A stretch of DNA of 34,223 nt from a virus: IMG/VR virus record IMGVR_UViG_3300028800_000229, positions 1-34,223 of that record; one strand, 5' to 3'. Shown one piece after another: positions 1 to 16,961 of the stretch. The notes under the pieces were generated by a model. The model had not been told where the DNA came from and ran no database searches. It worked only from the letters and a program-made list of their open reading frames with translations. Every line of letters begins with the position of its first letter. Position 1 is the first letter of the stretch. The translations under genes and the position numbers were made by a program.

Positions 1-61
1 GGCGGATCACATCCCGCACCCGCAGGAGTTGCTTTTCAACGAGCTGGTCGCGGGTTTTCAT
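1..61 (-). CDS. Small unknown protein, C-terminus cut by window edge
   Basis: An open frame begins at an ATG (complement of 59-61) and runs off the left edge. About 20 residues are visible, starting MKTRDQLVEKQLLRVRDVIR. The leader is A-rich (ATATCAAA-ATG), like other genes here. It lies in the same direction as the cassette-like genes and is separated from the 133-402 gene by a hairpin. The visible part is too short to identify, and it could be a chance frame. Confidence 0.35.
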   Translation of the reverse strand, partial: MKTRDQLVEKQLLRVRDVIR

Positions 62-97
62 TTTGATATACGACTAGCGGTTGGAGAATCACCGTTA

Positions 98-126
98 GGG
101 CGCAGAGCGTGTGCCACTCTGCGCCC
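98..126. terminator. 10-bp perfect hairpin after the 133-402 gene, possible terminator
   Basis: GGGCGCAGAG (98-107) and CTCTGCGCCC (117-126) form a perfect 10-bp stem with a 9-nt loop, 6 nt beyond the stop codon of the minus-strand gene at 133-402. There is no T-tract on either side, so it may instead stabilise the mRNA or be part of a recombination site. It overlaps a GTTAGGGCGCAGA copy (94-106) that recurs inverted at 420-432. Confidence 0.4.
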
Positions 127-132
127 GATGGT

Positions 133-402
133 TTAGCACGCGATTTCGTCGAGGATGTTTGTCATCCGCGCATTGATGCTTTCGGCGAGTCTGGTCGTGC
201 AGCGCAGAAAGTCGGCGTGAGGCGCGAGCGTTGCCTCGACCACATCCTTGTTGTTCCGGCCATCACTGGGCGGCTTGCACGCAGCGCACCGGACTGGTTT
301 CAGGCGTTCGCCCAAGACGGTAGAGAGTTCATCCATCGTCTTGAGTTGCTTGATGAGGTTTTCTTGCTGCTCGCTGATTTGCGAGGTTCGTTTTTCGTCC
401 AT
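133..402 (-). CDS. Unknown 89-aa protein, cassette-like gene 3
   Basis: This is an 89-aa soluble protein of no recognised family. The N-terminal third (about residues 5-35) is charged and heptad-like (SEQQENLIKQLKTMDELS), suggesting a short coiled coil. The middle carries two cysteines in RCAACKPP. The ATG at 402 follows an A-rich leader that begins at the GTTAGGGCGC core of the attC-like element at 426-535, about 24 nt upstream. The stop is followed by the hairpin at 98-126. Its position directly behind a recombination-site-like repeat suggests an exchangeable cassette. Function unknown. Confidence 0.55.
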   Translation of the reverse strand: MDEKRTSQISEQQENLIKQLKTMDELSTVLGERLKPVRCAACKPPSDGRNNKDVVEATLAPHADFLRCTTRLAESINARMTNILDEIAC

Positions 403-425
403 GTTGTTTGTCTTTCGTTTCTGCG

Positions 426-535
426 CCCTAACAACCGCATGAAGCCAATGCGGGTTGGACGCTGCTGTTTATTTCGTTGAGGCTTCAGATTGTTGTGTGT
501 CACCAGTCCCGCATGGCTTATGCGGAGCGTTAGGA
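426..535 (-). repeat. attC-like imperfect inverted repeat B (between 469-1053 and 133-402 genes)
   Basis: The 110-bp element starts with CCCTAAC (426-432) and ends with GTTAGGA (529-535) on the plus strand. Read inward, the two arms align over about 30 nt. Both carry CCTAAC, a 2-3 nt unpaired spacer, CCGCAT, AAGCC, ATGCGGG and TGG. One arm has an extra G and an extra A, like extrahelical bases. The apical part (about 460-500) is unpaired. This is the layout of integron attC sites (R''-L''-loop-L'-R'). On the minus strand, GTTAGGG is followed by a short leader and the ATG of the next gene, and the upstream gene ends inside the element, as is common for cassettes. The outer base of the 7-bp cores departs from the RYYYAAC/GTTRRRY consensus. 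Confidence 0.5.
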
Positions 536-1053
536 CGCTGAGGTTTCGGTAGCTTCAAAGGTCCACAGGGAGCAAAGCGTTCCACCTTCACCGGCGCTGG
601 CAGGCGTTCGGCGTTTTCGATTCTCACGATCACGCCGTCAATTTCGGCGGTGTAGTCGCGGCCACAATTTTCCTCGGAGCAGTAGTGAGGCTTCGTGCGT
701 GACCATTCAGCATCTGGCCAGAGGGCGGCTATCTCGTGCGGCTTCACGGATTTCTTGTCATAGGTGTAGCTGGCGAGCCGAATTTCCGCCACGAACAGGA
801 TGTCCTCGCGTTTCACCGGAGGCAGGCAGTCCACATCCACTTGCCAGCTCAGGCGCGCCAGCGTCAGCAGATGCTTGCGAATAAAAGCATTCAGGCGGTT
901 GATGCGCTCTTGTGTTTCGCGGAGTCTCATCATCTCCCATGCGAGTTGTTTGATGCCGCCGCCGCTGCCGTCAGAGTGCGCGCCGAGGTCGGCCATTGCT
1001 TCGAGGTCGAAGGGTTCCAAATCAGGATTATTTTTTGTGTAGTCAAGTGACAT
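469..1053 (-). CDS. Unknown 194-aa protein, cassette-like gene 2
   Basis: This is a 194-aa soluble protein of unrecognised family. The N-terminus is acidic (DLEPFDLEAMADLGAH) with a short Gly/Ser stretch. A helical segment follows at residues 34-70 (AWEMMRLRETQERINRLNAF), then a mixed region with a CSEENCGRDY motif near 120-130. The C-terminal tail of about 25 residues is Pro/Lys-rich and is encoded inside the attC-like element B. The ATG lies only 6 nt after the GTTAGGA core of attC-like element A, giving the order core, CGCAAT, ATG. That spacing is typical of integron cassette genes and supports this start. No function can be assigned. Confidence 0.65.
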   Translation of the reverse strand: MSLDYTKNNPDLEPFDLEAMADLGAHSDGSGGGIKQLAWEMMRLRETQERINRLNAFIRKHLLTLARLSWQVDVDCLPPVKREDILFVAEIRLASYTYDKKSVKPHEIAALWPDAEWSRTKPHYCSEENCGRDYTAEIDGVIVRIENAERLPAPVKVERFAPCGPLKLPKPQRPNAPHKPCGTGDTQQSEASTK

Positions 1054-1059
1054 ATTGCG

Positions 1060-1148
1060 TCCTAACCAATCAGTGCAGTGGATGGCGGGTGGCCACTGCG
1101 GTTTTATTGTGAGTCAGTGGCCCGCCACCACTGACTTCTACGTTAGGG
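1060..1148 (-). repeat. attC-like imperfect inverted repeat A (between 1070-1288 and 469-1053 genes)
   Basis: The 89-bp element has TCCTAAC (1060-1066) and GTTAGGG (1142-1148) at its ends on the plus strand. The arms pair as CCTAAC, an unpaired spacer (3 nt on one side, about 7 on the other), TCAGTG, GT, GGCGGG and CCACTG. Extra unpaired bases (CA, GA, TGG) all sit on the same arm. An apical loop of about 16 nt is left. On the minus strand the GTTAGGA end is followed after 6 nt by the ATG of the 469-1053 gene. Size, end cores, unpaired spacers and one-sided extra bases match integron attC architecture. I cannot run a covariance search, so this stays a structural resemblance. Confidence 0.55.
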
Positions 1149-1288
1149 TGCTTCGCCCAGCGTGCTTTTGCGGCATCGCTTGCGGCTTGAGATCGTTGTT
1201 TTTTGGACAGTCCGCGCCAGCGAGCTTTTCCGCCGCTGGCGCGTTTGGTGTCCGGCCATGTGTGGCCGCACTTTGGGCATTTATTCAT
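1070..1288 (-). CDS. Small zinc-ribbon-like protein (72 aa)
   Basis: A longer open frame exists upstream, but the ATG at 1288 overlaps the TGA of the preceding 52-aa gene (ATGA), so I place the start there, giving 72 aa. The N-terminus has CPKCGHTW, half of a zinc ribbon. It is followed by a basic segment (GGKARWRGLSKKQRSQAASD, then AAKARW) of the kind found in small phage-associated DNA- or RNA-binding proteins. The last 25 or so residues are encoded within attC-like element A. The translational coupling suggests it works with the 52-aa protein. Function is not known. Confidence 0.6.
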   Translation of the reverse strand: MNKCPKCGHTWPDTKRASGGKARWRGLSKKQRSQAASDAAKARWAKHPNVEVSGGGPLTHNKTAVATRHPLH

Positions 1289-1443
1289 ACCGCGTGTTGG
1301 TCGAAGGCTGCCACCAGTTTCTCCGCGAGCAGAAGCGCGTCCTTTTCGGTCACGCAGTCCACAGTTGTTTGTCCGATTTCCACGGCCCACACGAGGCTGC
1401 CGTCCGATAGTTTGGTGCTGACGATGTTGATTTGATGTTTCAT
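1285..1443 (-). CDS. 52-aa small protein, first gene behind the cassette promoter
   Basis: The frame starts at the ATG at 1443 and encodes 52 aa (begins MKHQINIVSTKLSDGSLVWA). Its TGA overlaps the next start codon (ATGA at 1285-1288), supporting both genes. The first half looks like a beta-hairpin, the second a helix (EKDALLLAEKLVAAF). The start codon lies only about 9 nt from the -10 box of a near-consensus promoter, so the mRNA would have almost no leader. Family unknown. Confidence 0.6.
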   Translation of the reverse strand: MKHQINIVSTKLSDGSLVWAVEIGQTTVDCVTEKDALLLAEKLVAAFDQHAV

Positions 1444-1451
1444 ACGTCGCC

Positions 1452-1480
1452 AATATATGCGTGCTAGTTCGCATTGTCAA
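1452..1480 (-). promoter_or_regulatory. Near-consensus sigma70 promoter facing the cassette-like genes
   Basis: On the minus strand TTGACA (complement of 1475-1480) is followed by a 17-bp spacer and TATATT (complement of 1452-1457). The -35 is perfect and the -10 matches 5 of 6. Transcription would start near 1445, 2-3 nt before the ATG at 1443. The -35 box overlaps the stop codon of the upstream gene, so this promoter sits at the seam between the early operon and the cassette-like genes. Confidence 0.7.
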
Positions 1481-2669: not shown

Positions 2670-3770
2670 TTAATTCCCCGTCGGCAGCGCCATGGCCTTG
2701 CTGTCGCGGAGTTTCTTGGCAGCGAGGAACATCTTTTCGCTCATCACCTGGTTGGTGTCGTGCGCGAAGGCCGTGGCGAATTCGAACGTCTCCACCACGT
2801 GGCGCAGCCGGCCCGCCGGGCGGTCATTGGCCATGCCCAGGATGGTTTCCATGAACTCATCCCCCGGCTTCCTGATGAACTGCTGCACGATGGGCAGCAC
2901 GTCGCTGGCGACGTATTCCTTGGGCAGATAGAACGGCTTGCCGGTGCGGCCGGTAAACTGCTCAAACATGTATTGCGCCTTGGTGATCTCCTGGTCGAAC
3001 CGCTGCGTGGCCACAAACAGCATCGCGCAGCCGCTCAGATCCCGGATGCGCCGGACCATCTCAATGGCGCGCGGGATGCTTTTGCCATCCGGCAGGTGCA
3101 GGTGGAATTCGTCAAATACCACGATGCGGGTGCTGTTGAGGCTCTTTACCACCGCGTCAAACATCTGGAGCGTGGTCACTTCCTTGCGGTTGCCCGTGGC
3201 CTTGGCGTAGAGCTGCTTGAGCAGGCCATTCGGCCCGCCGATGGGCATGCACTCGATGAACACTGAGCGGCCATGGTTATTGTCCTTGCAGACCTGTTGC
3301 AGGCAGACCGTCTTGCCCATGCCGGCCTCGCCCACCAGCATGGAACAGCCCTTGCGCGCCAGCGTGTATTGGAAGATCCATTCCACCTTTTCATAGATGG
3401 AATTTTTGACGAAATACGCCGTGGTAACACGGCCCTGATTCTCCACCAGCTTGCGGTAGCTCTGGATTTTCTTGGAGAAATTCTCAAAACTGCCCGCGTA
3501 GTCGCCGGCCTTGAACACGCGATAGATCGTGTTCCAATCATAGGCCAGACCATCCTCGCATTGCTTCTTGGTCAGGCGCTCCTCGGTGGCGTAGGCGTGG
3601 AACCAGACCAGATTGTCCTGGATATTCAGCGAGAGGTGTTTCCAGCGGGTGAGATCCAGGTCAAAGTCAAAAAACTTTTCCTGGGTGAAGCCGTCGCCCG
3701 CTTCGCTGATGGTGGGGCGTCCGGTTTTGCGTGCGGCCGGCAGGACCGGCGTATCAATGGTTTTAGTCAT
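2670..3770 (-). CDS. MuB-like AAA+ ATPase, target-DNA activator of transposition
   Basis: At 366 aa this is slightly longer than Mu B (about 310). MuB/TniB-type AAA+ ATPases form filaments on target DNA, stimulate the transposase and give target immunity. Residues 147-154 (GEAGMGKT) are a Walker A motif. Residues 216-221 (IVVFDE) are Walker B, and FVATQR at 252-257 fits a sensor-1 strand. An N-terminal extension (1-130) contains a helical segment (SFENFSKKIQSYRKL), probably the DNA-binding or appended domain. The C-terminal 100 residues are helical, including a QQFIRKPGDEF segment. It follows the transposase in the same direction, 28 nt after its stop, which is the Mu A-B order. The leader AAGGGACT-ATG supports the start. 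Identification by motif and context is strong. Confidence 0.9.
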   Translation of the reverse strand: MTKTIDTPVLPAARKTGRPTISEAGDGFTQEKFFDFDLDLTRWKHLSLNIQDNLVWFHAYATEERLTKKQCEDGLAYDWNTIYRVFKAGDYAGSFENFSKKIQSYRKLVENQGRVTTAYFVKNSIYEKVEWIFQYTLARKGCSMLVGEAGMGKTVCLQQVCKDNNHGRSVFIECMPIGGPNGLLKQLYAKATGNRKEVTTLQMFDAVVKSLNSTRIVVFDEFHLHLPDGKSIPRAIEMVRRIRDLSGCAMLFVATQRFDQEITKAQYMFEQFTGRTGKPFYLPKEYVASDVLPIVQQFIRKPGDEFMETILGMANDRPAGRLRHVVETFEFATAFAHDTNQVMSEKMFLAAKKLRDSKAMALPTGN

Positions 3771-3798: not shown

Positions 3799-6219
3799 TT
3801 AGGTGGTTACTGCGGAAAATTCGTGGTAATTGGGCGTGCCTTTGGCGAGATTGCGCTTGCCCAAGATCGTGGCGTCAATTTTCGCGGTCAGATAAGCGCA
3901 GACGCGGTCAAAGTTTTCCGGTGCATAGATGTCGCCGCCGAGTGCGTTCGCTGTGATACGGCGAGTGATGCCGAAGTTCACGGACCCGTGAAAGTCCTGG
4001 CCAAATGATTTGCCGGCCTTGCGGAACTCGGTCAGGCGCTTGAGCAAATAATCCACATACTGTTTTTCCTCATTACCAACCGGCTTGAGCGAGTAAAAGG
4101 TTTTGCCGCCTTCCACCGTGAGACCCGGTTTAGCCTGGGGAATGAGCGGATGCGACTGCCCGCCCGTCAAAATCTCATTCATTTCCTCGGTGCTCATTTC
4201 CGCCGGCTGGCTAGTGATGGCATCATTGCCCGTGGTCGCTGACAACCCCGCCCGTTGAAACTCTTCTGGCACTTCCACGCTGCTCATCAGCCGGCGCGTG
4301 TTTGCCTTGGTCACTTCTTTTTGCACATGCCGGTTGGCGGCGGCTTCGAGTTGCTCACCCACTTCTTGACCGGGCAACGGACGCGCTGCAAGCGTCTTGA
4401 TGGACCGTTGGAGATACGGTGCGAGGCTGGCGGCGTGCGTGCGGGCGACCTGCGAGGAAAGTTTTTTACGAAGCGTTTCTTTGGCGGTCTGTTCCTCGGT
4501 GGCACCAAATTTCGGAATGGGATTCACATACTCGGCGCGGCAGATGAATTTGTCCTGCTTGCCGCTGCGGATGGAATAGATCAGCGCATCCGCCTCGGGA
4601 TTCGCATCATTCCAGAACACGATGACCTTGCGCCCGCGCCATTGCTCCAGCGCCTCGGGGTTTGACCAGGTGTGATGGATCATGTTGCGGCCCGAGCCGA
4701 CGCCAATCCGCGCGCCGTTGCGCGTAATCTCCAACACCCGGTAGCTCGAACGGTAGAGCCACTTGGCGTGATCCGGCATCACTTCGAATGCCGGCGCATC
4801 CGCCGCCCACTTGTCCGCCGGGGCTTCTCCGCGCAGCACCTTCCCGTCGTTGCGCGTATGGTTCAGCGCATTCATCACCTTCTTGAGGTGCTCGGTGTAT
4901 TGCGACAGGTGCAGGAAGAATTGGCGCGGATGCGCGTGGTTATTTGCCACCAGCGCCTTCTGTTGTTTGACGGTTTCAGGGCAATCCTTCATTTCCATGC
5001 GCCCGCAAAAGCCAGGGACATTATCCGCCGCGTGCTGGAGCACGTTGAACATCTGCTCAATGATTTTTCCACGCGGAGTGCGAGTGTGGATCACCTTCAC
5101 GCCGAGCGAACTCAACCCGCCGAACCGCGTGGCGTCATCGAGATTGGTTTTCTGGCCGATGACCTGTGACGACTGCCAGGTGCCGCCTTCCAGCACGGCC
5201 TGCTTGAACAAGCCATATTCATCCAGCGTGTCGCCGATGAGACCCCAGACATCGTCCTTGTTATACTGGCCTTTCGGACGCATCACGGCGCGGATGTTCA
5301 GCCAGCACTGGCTGCCCACGTCGGCCACGGCGAGGATCTGCGGGCGGATGAGAATGAATCCCTCGTCATTCGGCCATTCCACCCAGACGTAGCAGTTGGC
5401 CGTCATGTCGTCGGCGGTGAAAGTATGTCCCGCCGGCACGTTGTCATACGTGCATTCCGTGAACGCGCCGTCCAGCTTCATTGCCTTGGGGCCGATTTGG
5501 ATGAGCTTGGTGGCCAGTTCCGGGGTGCGGAGCGCATCGCGCACCGATGGCGGGACATAGGATTTGGAGGCATACGCGCCATGCAGCCAGCGCCGGGCGC
5601 TGCCATTAATCGTGGGCGAGCCGGCGAGGTCGCGGAACGCGCTGGCGATGTTGAGCTGCGCCTTCGCATCGCCGCGCCGGGCGTTGCCATGCTCGATGGC
5701 GGCGGCGCGGCCCTGCAAAATCTGTTCATCAGTCAAATCATTCACAAATGGCTTCACGCCCACGCGGCCGCGCTTCTGTTCGCACAGGCCGTCAATGCCG
5801 TGCGCCTCATACTTGGCGTGCCACTGGCGCAGCGTGATCTTGTTGCCGAGCTTAAATAGAGGATGCTCGGTGTTCATGTGCTGGATGACGAGGTCCAGGG
5901 CGCGCTCCTTGCCAAAGGCGATATTGGCGATGAGCAGCTTCACGGCCTTCTCGCGCAGCAAAACATTTTCGCGCTGGGCATCATTGCCAGTGAGATCAGC
6001 AAAGCGGACCGCCGGTGCCACCGGCTGGCCCTGGTCTCGGCGCGGGCTGGCGATGATGATCTGGGCGATATTGGCCGGCACCTGGTATTCGTCGCGGTTG
6101 CCGTCGCGGCGACAGGGCCATTGCTCGCGCTGCGCTGTGCGATGCACCGTCTTCTTGCTGGCACCCGTGGCGCGGGCGATGTCCTTGGCGCAAAAATACT
6201 CGGCAGAGATATTTTCCAT
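3799..6219 (-). CDS. Mu-type DDE transposase (MuA-like), with Glu at the second catalytic position
   Basis: The start at 6219 gives 806 aa. An earlier in-frame ATG at 6243 (814 aa, used for numbering here) would overlap the upstream gene. Residues 10-60 hold a MuA-type N-terminal HTH (FCAKDIARATGASKKTVHRT). Helical end-binding domains follow (about 90-240), then an RNase-H-like core (265-420), a beta-barrel region (480-580) and a helical C-terminus that may contact MuB. By eye the core aligns with MuA: TADDM (Asp279, MuA Asp269) and KIIEQMF (Glu396, MuA Glu392). Where MuA has IDNTRG (Asp336), this protein has LEGGTW, with Glu352. The gene begins 1 nt after the stop of the 72-aa gene and is followed by the MuB-like gene. 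Family assignment is secure; the Asp-to-Glu alignment is an inference. Confidence 0.92.
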   Translation of the reverse strand: MENISAEYFCAKDIARATGASKKTVHRTAQREQWPCRRDGNRDEYQVPANIAQIIIASPRRDQGQPVAPAVRFADLTGNDAQRENVLLREKAVKLLIANIAFGKERALDLVIQHMNTEHPLFKLGNKITLRQWHAKYEAHGIDGLCEQKRGRVGVKPFVNDLTDEQILQGRAAAIEHGNARRGDAKAQLNIASAFRDLAGSPTINGSARRWLHGAYASKSYVPPSVRDALRTPELATKLIQIGPKAMKLDGAFTECTYDNVPAGHTFTADDMTANCYVWVEWPNDEGFILIRPQILAVADVGSQCWLNIRAVMRPKGQYNKDDVWGLIGDTLDEYGLFKQAVLEGGTWQSSQVIGQKTNLDDATRFGGLSSLGVKVIHTRTPRGKIIEQMFNVLQHAADNVPGFCGRMEMKDCPETVKQQKALVANNHAHPRQFFLHLSQYTEHLKKVMNALNHTRNDGKVLRGEAPADKWAADAPAFEVMPDHAKWLYRSSYRVLEITRNGARIGVGSGRNMIHHTWSNPEALEQWRGRKVIVFWNDANPEADALIYSIRSGKQDKFICRAEYVNPIPKFGATEEQTAKETLRKKLSSQVARTHAASLAPYLQRSIKTLAARPLPGQEVGEQLEAAANRHVQKEVTKANTRRLMSSVEVPEEFQRAGLSATTGNDAITSQPAEMSTEEMNEILTGGQSHPLIPQAKPGLTVEGGKTFYSLKPVGNEEKQYVDYLLKRLTEFRKAGKSFGQDFHGSVNFGITRRITANALGGDIYAPENFDRVCAYLTAKIDATILGKRNLAKGTPNYHEFSAVTT

Positions 6220-6220
6220 A

Positions 6221-6439
6221 TTATTTATTGGGTGCAGCGTCACGCTGCTTGCGTCCCTGTTCGATGAATGAATTTAGATCCACCACGCGGCAATGTTTCA
6301 CGGTCAGGCCATGATTCATCACGGCCTGCCAGCCCTGCACTTCCGAGGCAAACACGCTGGCCTCATCCGCTGGCACCATTTTTATGGCCGGCAGCAACAC
6401 CGGCGCACCCGCATAAAGAATGATGAAGCTGTTGTTCAT
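6221..6439 (-). CDS. Unknown 72-aa protein coupled to the hydrolase gene
   Basis: The longer open frame upstream is a shadow of the hydrolase gene. The ATG at 6439 overlaps that gene's TGA (ATGA), giving 72 aa. The N-terminus is hydrophobic (NNSFIILYAGAPVLLPAIKM), not clearly a signal peptide. The C-terminus is polar and basic. The last codons contain a hairpin plus CCCAAT motif that recurs before two other genes. It sits between hydrolase and transposase in the early operon. Function unknown. Confidence 0.55.
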   Translation of the reverse strand: MNNSFIILYAGAPVLLPAIKMVPADEASVFASEVQGWQAVMNHGLTVKHCRVVDLNSFIEQGRKQRDAAPNK

Positions 6440-14697: not shown

Positions 14698-16961
14698 ATT
14701 TATTCGGCGATACAAAATCCATCTCCCCCGACATGGCGGCGTGGCTGCGGGCGGATGACGTGGACGCCAATGATGGCGGCGGCGCGAAGCTCACGTCGCC
14801 GTATTCGCAGTCGTCCTGGGTTTACATCGCCATCAGTTGCCTGGCGGAGAATGTCGCGCAGATCCCGCTGCGCATCTCGCGCATTCCCGAGAGCGCGGCC
14901 AAGAAGCTGGCGCGCGGTGTAGATCCGAGCTTCAAAAAGCGCGTCATGAGCGAGAACATCGTCGAGAGCGGCGACGTGGTGGATCTGTTCAACAATCCGC
15001 ACCCGACGATGGACCGCGCGCTGTTCATGTCCAACATCGTTTCGTGGAAGGCGCTGCGCGGGGAATTTTTTGTAGTGCCGCTGGATGCCGCCGATTCACC
15101 GGTGGACCTGGCCTCGCGCGGCAGCCGGGTGAAACGGCTGCTCACGCTGGAACCGGGCTTGTTCTGGCACATGGTGCAGGGCTATGAACTCATGGCATGG
15201 CGCTACACCGGTTCGCCGCTGCTCACGCCGCTGCCCAGCGAAATGCTTCTGCCCACGGAAGTCGTCCATCACCGCACATTCAACCCGTTCCTCTATTGGC
15301 GCGGGATGTCGCCGTTGATCCTGGCCACGCTAGCGGCGATGAGCGATTACGCCGCCAGCCAGTTCATGAAGGGGCTGATGCTGAACAATGCCGACACCGG
15401 CCTCATCGCCACCACGGATGCAAATCTGACGCAGGAACAGCGCGAACAGTTCACCGCCGCCCTGCGCGATCGCAAGCGCAAGGCCGGCACCGCCGACCGG
15501 CCGCTGTTTCTTTCCAGCGGCGTCAAGATCGAGAAACCGCAGGTCAGTCAGGCGGACATGGAATTTCTGGCCAACCGGAAATATAACCGCGAGGAAATCT
15601 TTGCCGTGTTCAAGGTGCCACCGAGCATGGCAGGCATTGAGACGGCCAGCGGTGGCAAGGCCGGCGGCGCGAGCGGCAGCAGCAGCGGCGGCAGCCAGCA
15701 GCAGGATCGCCGGGTGTTCATCGAGAACACTATCACGAATTTCTGCCGGCAGATTGAGGCGTCGTTCACGCCCATCGTCAAGCGGTTCGATCCTTCGCTG
15801 GAAATCTGGTTCGACGTGGACAGCCTGCCGATCATGCAGGAAGCGCGGCGCGACCGGTTGGATGCCGGCACCAAGGCGTTTGGCATGGGCGTGCCGCTGA
15901 ATGACATCAACACGGCCTACGATCTGGGCTTCCCGGAATACAAGTGGGGCGACACCGGCTATCTGCCGTTCAATTTAACGGGCATTGCGGGCGACGGCCT
16001 CACGGAAAAACCGGAGCCGGGCAACGATCCGAACAATCCGCAGAATCCCGAGGATTCCCCGGCGGATGGTGAGGATGCCAATCAAAACACCATTTCACGC
16101 GCGCAATCATTTTTGCGCAAGCTGCTCGTCGCGCCGAAGACCGTGCCGGTCCACCAGTGTGCGCCGAACCCGGCGTTTGAACAGAGCATCGCGCCGAGCG
16201 TCAAGGCCAAGCAGACGCGAATGAGCCGTTTCTTTTTTGAACAGCGCGGCCGGGTGCTGGCAAAACTATCCAATGAAGCCGCCAAGGCGCTGGTTCAAAA
16301 GACCATTGACGATTTATGGGATAAGAAGACAGAAGACGCTGCGCTGTTGGAACGGCTGAAACCGCAGATCATCGCCGACCTTGAATTTGGCGGCGCGCAA
16401 ATCTTTGAAGAGATCGGTGCCAGCGACTTCAGTTTGCCGCCGGCGGAGGCACTGGCGTATCTGACGGCGCGCAAGAATGCCATCAATGGCATCAACGCCA
16501 CCACGTGGGACGAGCTGAAGGCTTCGCTCGGCGAAGGTTTGAAGAACGGCGAAAGCTACGAGGCCATGGCGGACCGCGTAAAGGCGATTTACAAGGACGC
16601 CAGCATGGGCCGCGCAGAAACGATTGCTTTGACGGAAACCAATGCCGCCGTGAATGCCGGGCGCAACAACGCCATGAAGACGGCGGGCGTGGCGCGCAAG
16701 GGCTGGAAAACTTCCCATCTCGAAAACACCCGCGCCACCCACATCGCCAACGAGGCATTTTCCGATGAGAACAACGGCATCCCGATTGACGATACCTGGC
16801 CGAACGGTTGCGATTATCCCGGCGATCCTGACGGCGAACCGGGCGAGACCATCAACTGCCGTTGCTTCGGCTATGCGCTGCAAGACTCTAAATCAAAAAT
16901 GCCGGCGAAGTTCCTGACGTTCGATGCCTGGCTCAAGGCCAAGACCGGAGGTGCCAGATGA
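14694..16961 (+). CDS. HK97-type portal fused to a MuF head-morphogenesis domain (755 aa)
   Basis: The ATG at 14694 overlaps the previous stop (ATGA); the frame upstream of it is a shadow. Residues 35-420 match HK97-family portals: SWVYIAISCLAENVAQIPL, NPFLYWRGMSPLILATLAAM, and REEIFAVFKVPPSMAGI. A Gly/Ser-rich insert lies at 315-340. A Pro/Asp/Asn-rich linker (435-470) leads to a MuF/SPP1 gp7-type minor head domain (about 500-730). Signatures there are ALTETNAAVNAGRNNAM, GWKTSHLENTRATHIANE and the closing NCRC (721-724). The portal forms the DNA entry ring; MuF domains are minor head proteins often ejected with DNA. Normally these are separate genes. Here they are one reading frame. Confidence 0.88.
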   Translation: MNLFGDTKSISPDMAAWLRADDVDANDGGGAKLTSPYSQSSWVYIAISCLAENVAQIPLRISRIPESAAKKLARGVDPSFKKRVMSENIVESGDVVDLFNNPHPTMDRALFMSNIVSWKALRGEFFVVPLDAADSPVDLASRGSRVKRLLTLEPGLFWHMVQGYELMAWRYTGSPLLTPLPSEMLLPTEVVHHRTFNPFLYWRGMSPLILATLAAMSDYAASQFMKGLMLNNADTGLIATTDANLTQEQREQFTAALRDRKRKAGTADRPLFLSSGVKIEKPQVSQADMEFLANRKYNREEIFAVFKVPPSMAGIETASGGKAGGASGSSSGGSQQQDRRVFIENTITNFCRQIEASFTPIVKRFDPSLEIWFDVDSLPIMQEARRDRLDAGTKAFGMGVPLNDINTAYDLGFPEYKWGDTGYLPFNLTGIAGDGLTEKPEPGNDPNNPQNPEDSPADGEDANQNTISRAQSFLRKLLVAPKTVPVHQCAPNPAFEQSIAPSVKAKQTRMSRFFFEQRGRVLAKLSNEAAKALVQKTIDDLWDKKTEDAALLERLKPQIIADLEFGGAQIFEEIGASDFSLPPAEALAYLTARKNAINGINATTWDELKASLGEGLKNGESYEAMADRVKAIYKDASMGRAETIALTETNAAVNAGRNNAMKTAGVARKGWKTSHLENTRATHIANEAFSDENNGIPIDDTWPNGCDYPGDPDGEPGETINCRCFGYALQDSKSKMPAKFLTFDAWLKAKTGGAR

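Follow-up and report, generated by a model that had tools for sequence, protein, structure and literature searches.

The stretch of DNA analysed here (the window) is the whole of IMG/VR virus record IMGVR_UViG_3300028800_000229, a linear sequence of 34,223 bases, truncated on the left. The phage is Mu-like, with MuA- and MuB-type proteins and head genes present. The transposase (3799-6243, - strand) matches phrog_310 with E 3e-25 and the neighbouring MuB/TniB-like ATPase (2670-3770, - strand) matches phrog_296 with E 4e-26; the + strand encodes the portal, head and terminase. The region of interest lies at the end of the early gene block, in a - strand operon, and the two matches confirm the initial annotation in placing it at the end of the early region of a transposable phage. 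Relatives of the transposase were found in Verrucomicrobia MAGs and in the viral contigs L002-L006 and L018; one of them (L015) is a prophage-like stretch within a 165-kb contig of a Verrucomicrobia MAG. A phage of the same type (L016) is present in a MAG labelled Patescibacteria, which is probably a binning error. A single-sequence MuB scan of the viral contigs gave no matches, nor did an Rfam scan at the gathering cut-off or a tRNA scan.

The first 61 bases (1-61, - strand) hold the start of a phage gene (MKTRDQLVEKQLLRVRDVIR...) truncated by the contig end. Next to it on the same strand is an 89-aa gene (133-402; codon score +14.9 versus -20.8 for the opposite ORF), with a weak match to crAss001_48 (E 0.002) that is below the cut-off. 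Just past this gene, at 97-126, a cassette-end repeat forms a perfect 10-bp GC-rich hairpin (GGGCGCAGAG/CTCTGCGCCC) with no T run. The next gene encodes 194 aa (469-1053, - strand; codon score +20.6) and has no family match; its product was absent from 313 host-order genomes in a search made without a positive control. It is followed, always on the - strand, by a 72-aa zinc-ribbon-like protein (MNKCPKCGHTWP..., 1070-1288), with a Zn_ribbon match below the cut-off and an undecided codon score of -9.7, by a 52-aa gene (1285-1443; codon score +13.6) and by a 117-aa gene (1477-1830; codon score +12.3) with a DnaJ-type CxxCxGxG zinc finger (E 9e-6, below the curated cut-off). The ORFs opposite to these genes all have negative codon scores. 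The near-consensus promoter reported in the initial annotation is present: a sigma-70-like site on the - strand (1480-1452; TTGACA-17-TATATT, 11/12 of the consensus, with 1.6 such sites expected by chance in 4 kb) reads into the small genes. Beyond them lies a native phage gene of 87 aa (1845-2108, - strand), with a homologue of 39% identity in prophage L015.

attC sites and cassette boundaries

Two palindromes, at 426-535 and 1060-1148, have CCTAAC and GTTAGG ends and fold far better than shuffled sequences on both strands (DNA folding, z around -5, none of 200 shuffles equal). They are real, and the ATG positions and the gene ends inside the elements are also as first described. Strong palindromes between small genes could be terminator hairpins, or members of another repeat family such as phage promoter/stem-loop or MITE-like elements. 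However, no intrinsic terminator (a GC stem followed by a T run) was called at either palindrome, the two have no direct-repeat family in common, and both match an attC model and are bounded by matching cassette ends, which makes this explanation extremely improbable.

The attC covariance models were trained on sites from integrons in which the place of intI sets the polarity: host-order chromosomal arrays, a cyanobacterial plasmid, Shewanella and class 1. The first and narrower model, R1, built from loop-trimmed sites, gave the two palindromes only 8 bits. The broader model, R2, was made from the matches of R1 in 21 loci, with the window excluded from training, and gave clear scores of 46.3 bits for attC1 (426-535, + strand; E 2.3e-8, with no match on the - strand) and 54.8 bits for attC2 (1060-1148, + strand; E 3.3e-10), the E-values being rough. 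In the window R2 found three attC sites, all on the + strand, and the next best match had 8.7 bits; the top match outside attC arrays, in 315 kb of phage loci, had 13.4 bits. Regarding polarity, 139 of 143 matches in viral intI loci were on the strand expected from intI. The sites in L150 (11426-12794) and L161 (8107-8230) are on the same strand as intI, contrary to the other 139, and the array of L150 is downstream of intI. R2 is not sensitive to all attC types and did not detect any in two phages from the published CALIN set, Tetrasphaera phage TJE1 and Polaribacter phage P12002L.

The third site, attC3 (1672-1863, + strand; 22.7 bits, E 0.003), has an unusually long terminal loop and a modest score; the R2 match itself covers 1676-1859. 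Its L'' (CGCCGGAGCCAACC) and L' (GGTGGCTCAG) boxes are as in Verrucomicrobia chromosomal attC sites (L073/L084). Our first choice for its end, at 1713 (GTTGTCC), was dropped, as both the model and a canonical L' box point to a crossover after base 1857. Both palindromes recognised in the initial annotation are therefore attC sites, and the array is larger than it proposed, with a third attC and three cassettes between 94 and 1857. In all the window sites the R and L boxes are paired and the extra-helical bases asymmetric, as in integron arrays. With three sites and no nearby intI the locus falls into the CALIN class (at least two attC), provisionally, the contig end being 94 bases from the array.

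The G|TT crossover points are after bases 94, 529, 1142 and 1857, and delimit an array of three cassettes at 95-1857, all with attC polarity +. Cassette Y (95-529) contains the 89-aa gene and attC1, cassette X (530-1142) contains the 194-aa gene and attC2, and cassette Z (1143-1857) contains the three remaining small genes, the promoter-like site and attC3. The 3' end of the 194-aa gene crosses the cassette boundary into attC1, and the 117-aa gene starts within attC3. Matching cassette ends chain through the region: 94-106 with 420-432 (13 bases), 529-538 with 1057-1066 (10 bases) and 1142-1152 with 1668-1678 (11 bases). These paired ends are a trait of integron cassettes, since in a circular cassette the beginning has to be complementary to the inverse core of that same cassette. 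The left insertion boundary (84-96, + strand; GAATCACCG|TT, crossover after 94) is an attI-like or secondary site, with 13 matching bases between the beginning of cassette Y and its inverse core.

At the right end the array interrupts the 3' end of the 87-aa gene. When the flanks are joined at 94|1858, this gene acquires a longer end (..ELQGNGDSPTASRISK*) and its stop codon overlaps the start of the next gene as ATGA. The restored gene end is suggestive only. A search for an empty-site relative lacking the array found none, as did a search for relatives of the 87-aa flanking gene.

The - strand encodes the cassette genes of the window, and + is the top strand of attC, so that the genes run against attC. 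The initial annotation had placed attC on the same strand as the genes, as is ordinary for integrons, and on this point it has to be reversed. For ordinary polarity, with attC on the - strand and the genes forward, speak the ATG at 1053, 10 nt past the core, and the stop codons inside the palindromes. R2, however, scores the + strand alone, and the extra bases sit in the 5' arm of the + strand as in known arrays, an imperfection that sets the top strand as +. Moreover, a - strand reading leaves the last cassette without an attC beyond 94, whereas the + reading has attC3, and the integrase of a related contig (G303, described below) is located where attI belongs under + polarity. Ordinary polarity is in our judgement quite unlikely. 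In integrons the genes usually, though not universally, have the same direction as attC, and for this reason the mismatch was not taken as excluding an integron array. The reversed genes of the window share the direction of the phage operon.

Integrases and cassette exchange in related phages

As stated in the initial annotation, no integrase is present; a search of the 34-kb record found no IntI. The related phage contig L002, with a transposase 82% identical to that of the window, has one at the equivalent place of the operon. This protein (P0004) matches TIGR02249 with 317.5 bits against a cut-off of 265, has IntI4 as its best solved match (1e-59), and aligns with the catalytic residues of tyrosine recombinases and the IntI patch present; R2 found no attC in L002. 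The operon position of the L002 integrase is apparently a cargo spot in this lineage, because L003 has at that position (15861-16685) an ORF that resembles a Dam methyltransferase, assigned by eye from its translation.

A second contig, G303:C225, is a 35-kb phage-like sequence from a host-order Verrucomicrobia MAG, and its IntI is 94% identical to that of L002. Its gene order is MuA-like, MuB-like, Mu Gam, three attC sites and IntI, the attC sites occupying precisely the interval from the Gam stop to the IntI start, with reversed genes and a putative attI. The motif AGAATCA..G|TT at the left boundary of the window, where no IntI is adjacent, is also found in the IntI-side flank of G303 (L063 2770-2781) and in L002. 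DNA homology between L002 and G303 is limited here to the IntI gene and roughly twelve further bases, ending at the GTT core. In L002 (14472-15479) and L063 (1761-2768) intI and the attI half-site form an exact block, about 1,020 bp long and with 87% DNA identity, in phages otherwise dissimilar, as if intI had moved as a unit. In the tree, the integrases of L002 and G303 group on a long branch of their own, outside those of Verrucomicrobia chromosomes, with low backbone support. Given the closely related integrases of L002 and G303, encoded in the same operon, the most likely source of the integrase for the window phage is the phage lineage itself, either past the truncated left end or in relatives; a host IntI is the alternative.

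Reversed polarity is also seen at the two attC sites of contig L018, again a relative by transposase. One of the two shares 94.6% identity with an attC of a host-order chromosome, which suggests exchange between phages and host integrons, and about one third of the host-order genomes carry integrons. The same two observations, together with the lack of IntI in the record, would fit a passive relic: cassettes, or part of the integron of a host chromosome, that were taken over by the phage and do not recombine there. This we hold to be rather unlikely: the genes are reversed, unlike those of control arrays, the phage-lineage IntI of L002 and G303 is on a branch outside the chromosomal ones, and several phages have the same location and layout. 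The record is metagenomic and the array is near the contig end, so that a chimeric assembly of phage and host integron DNA was also considered. It appears very improbable, as phage genes are read on both sides of the array and the same arrangement occurs independently in G303 and L018.

Exchange of cassettes can be followed in other phages. L101 and L102 share 99.9% identity in intI and the downstream DNA and differ in their cassettes, with breakpoints at the AAC core. Compared with L103, L104 has two extra cassettes, one of them beside intI, and the breakpoints are exactly at AA|C (equivalent to G|TT); terminase and tail genes identify L104 as a phage. The L101-L104 comparisons show that integron-type cassette exchange occurs in phages. 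The initial proposal that such recombination varies the cargo genes is supported in other phages, with breakpoints exactly at the crossover, and we infer that it also takes place in the window phage itself.

Taking these results together, we consider it highly probable that 95-1857 is a three-cassette integron array inserted between two early-operon genes of a Mu-like phage of Verrucomicrobiota, with its genes reversed. The integron-type cassettes with attC sites proposed at the outset are borne out by a covariance model built without the window, by the matching ends and by a related contig with IntI and a similar array. Against this reading are the lack of IntI in a record cut at the left, the negative search for an empty-site relative, the low R1 score, the long loop and modest score of attC3, and the 194-aa gene that crosses a cassette boundary. 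In such an array IntI would fold the bottom strand of attC and insert or remove cassettes at G|TT. The reversed genes would need no integron Pc, because transcription from the early operon of the phage, or from the promoter-like site of cassette Z, would read them. Activity of the array, its expression and the source of the integrase are presumed for the window phage on this basis.

Reversed cassettes in viral intI loci

A broad IntI scan of IMG/VR gave at least 364 loci, of which 80 were kept. The orientation of cassettes was assigned by the longest ORF, excluding two near-copies (L099, L101) and one array that looks bacterial (L123). Among 51 viral cassettes 42 were reversed and nine forward, compared with one reversed and 16 forward among 17 controls (Fisher P 2e-8, to be taken as a guide because some relatedness between loci remains). 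By locus, the numbers were 23 reversed and three forward in viruses versus none and seven in controls. Codon scoring of the viral loci gave 59 reversed, 14 forward and 24 undecided. Many of the surveyed intI contigs have terminase, tail or primase genes, and the reversed layout is a recurrent one in phages carrying integron integrases.

The reversed ORFs with family matches include C5 and N4/N6 DNA methyltransferases, PAPS-reductase-like proteins, DHH phosphoesterase, NADAR and Ead/Ea22-like proteins, and these matches back the reversed coding strand in the other phage arrays. For instance, in the temperate phage L008 (8024-9018), which encodes IntI, a reversed cassette carries a NADAR gene; proteins of this family have been linked to ADP-ribose chemistry and possibly to anti-defence. 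PAPS-reductase-like cassette genes recur in L130 (8067-8819), L149 (8098-8898) and L168 (8675-9469), in which the integrases are clearly different. An IntI-like gene annotated as xerD is also present in the early operon of Virus Rctr41k (KX853513; L087 4680-5678), a phage from a methane-oxidising enrichment, in which R2 found no attC.

Comparison with known integrons

Integrons and CALINs in phage genomes, with or without intI, are already known, and recombination of phage attC sites with attI1 through the action of IntI1 was demonstrated in the same work (Qi et al. 2023, PMC9892861). The arrays described there are like the present ones in having attC sites inside phage genomes. In contrast, the window and its relatives are Mu-like phages, with intI in the early operon of the relatives and with reversed genes. 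In a search of its text, Qi et al. (PMC9892861) do not mention Verrucomicrobia, have Mu-like in a reference title only, and treat orientation in passages without reversed cassette genes. Reversed cassettes as a phage form were not found in the searchable literature, most subscription papers and preprints being outside its reach.

The sedentary chromosomal integrons of Verrucomicrobiota are similar in the L-box motifs of attC and, at one L018 site, in sequence, as noted above. They are unlike the phage arrays in that their genes run with attC and their integrase is on a different branch. Class 1 integrons (IntI1, attI1, Pc) have in common the architecture of attC, the G|TT crossover and, in G303, the 5' end of intI facing the array; however, their cassettes are read forward from Pc, while the genes of the phage arrays are read back towards intI. 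With Mu and Mu-like phages the common element is the early block of MuA, MuB and, in G303, Gam. Classical Mu is not known to carry intI or an attC array where its early region ends.

In the usual view integrons are bacterial devices in which attC polarity sets the genes forward behind a promoter, and the choice of attC strand is what secures the orientation of cassettes for expression from Pc (PMC8946536). For the class, we lean slightly towards the idea that phage integrons run backwards, their genes being opposite to attC, in the direction of intI and read by the phage operon, with a pool of cassettes in part distinct from that of bacteria and with swaps of anti-defence and DNA-modification cargo. 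If this is true, the reversed layout would be a simple genomic signature for finding phage integrons, which would be movable stores of methyltransferases, PAPS-reductase-like proteins, NADAR and small genes. A recurrent reversed phage form would change the view of cassette expression and of the exchange between phages and bacteria.
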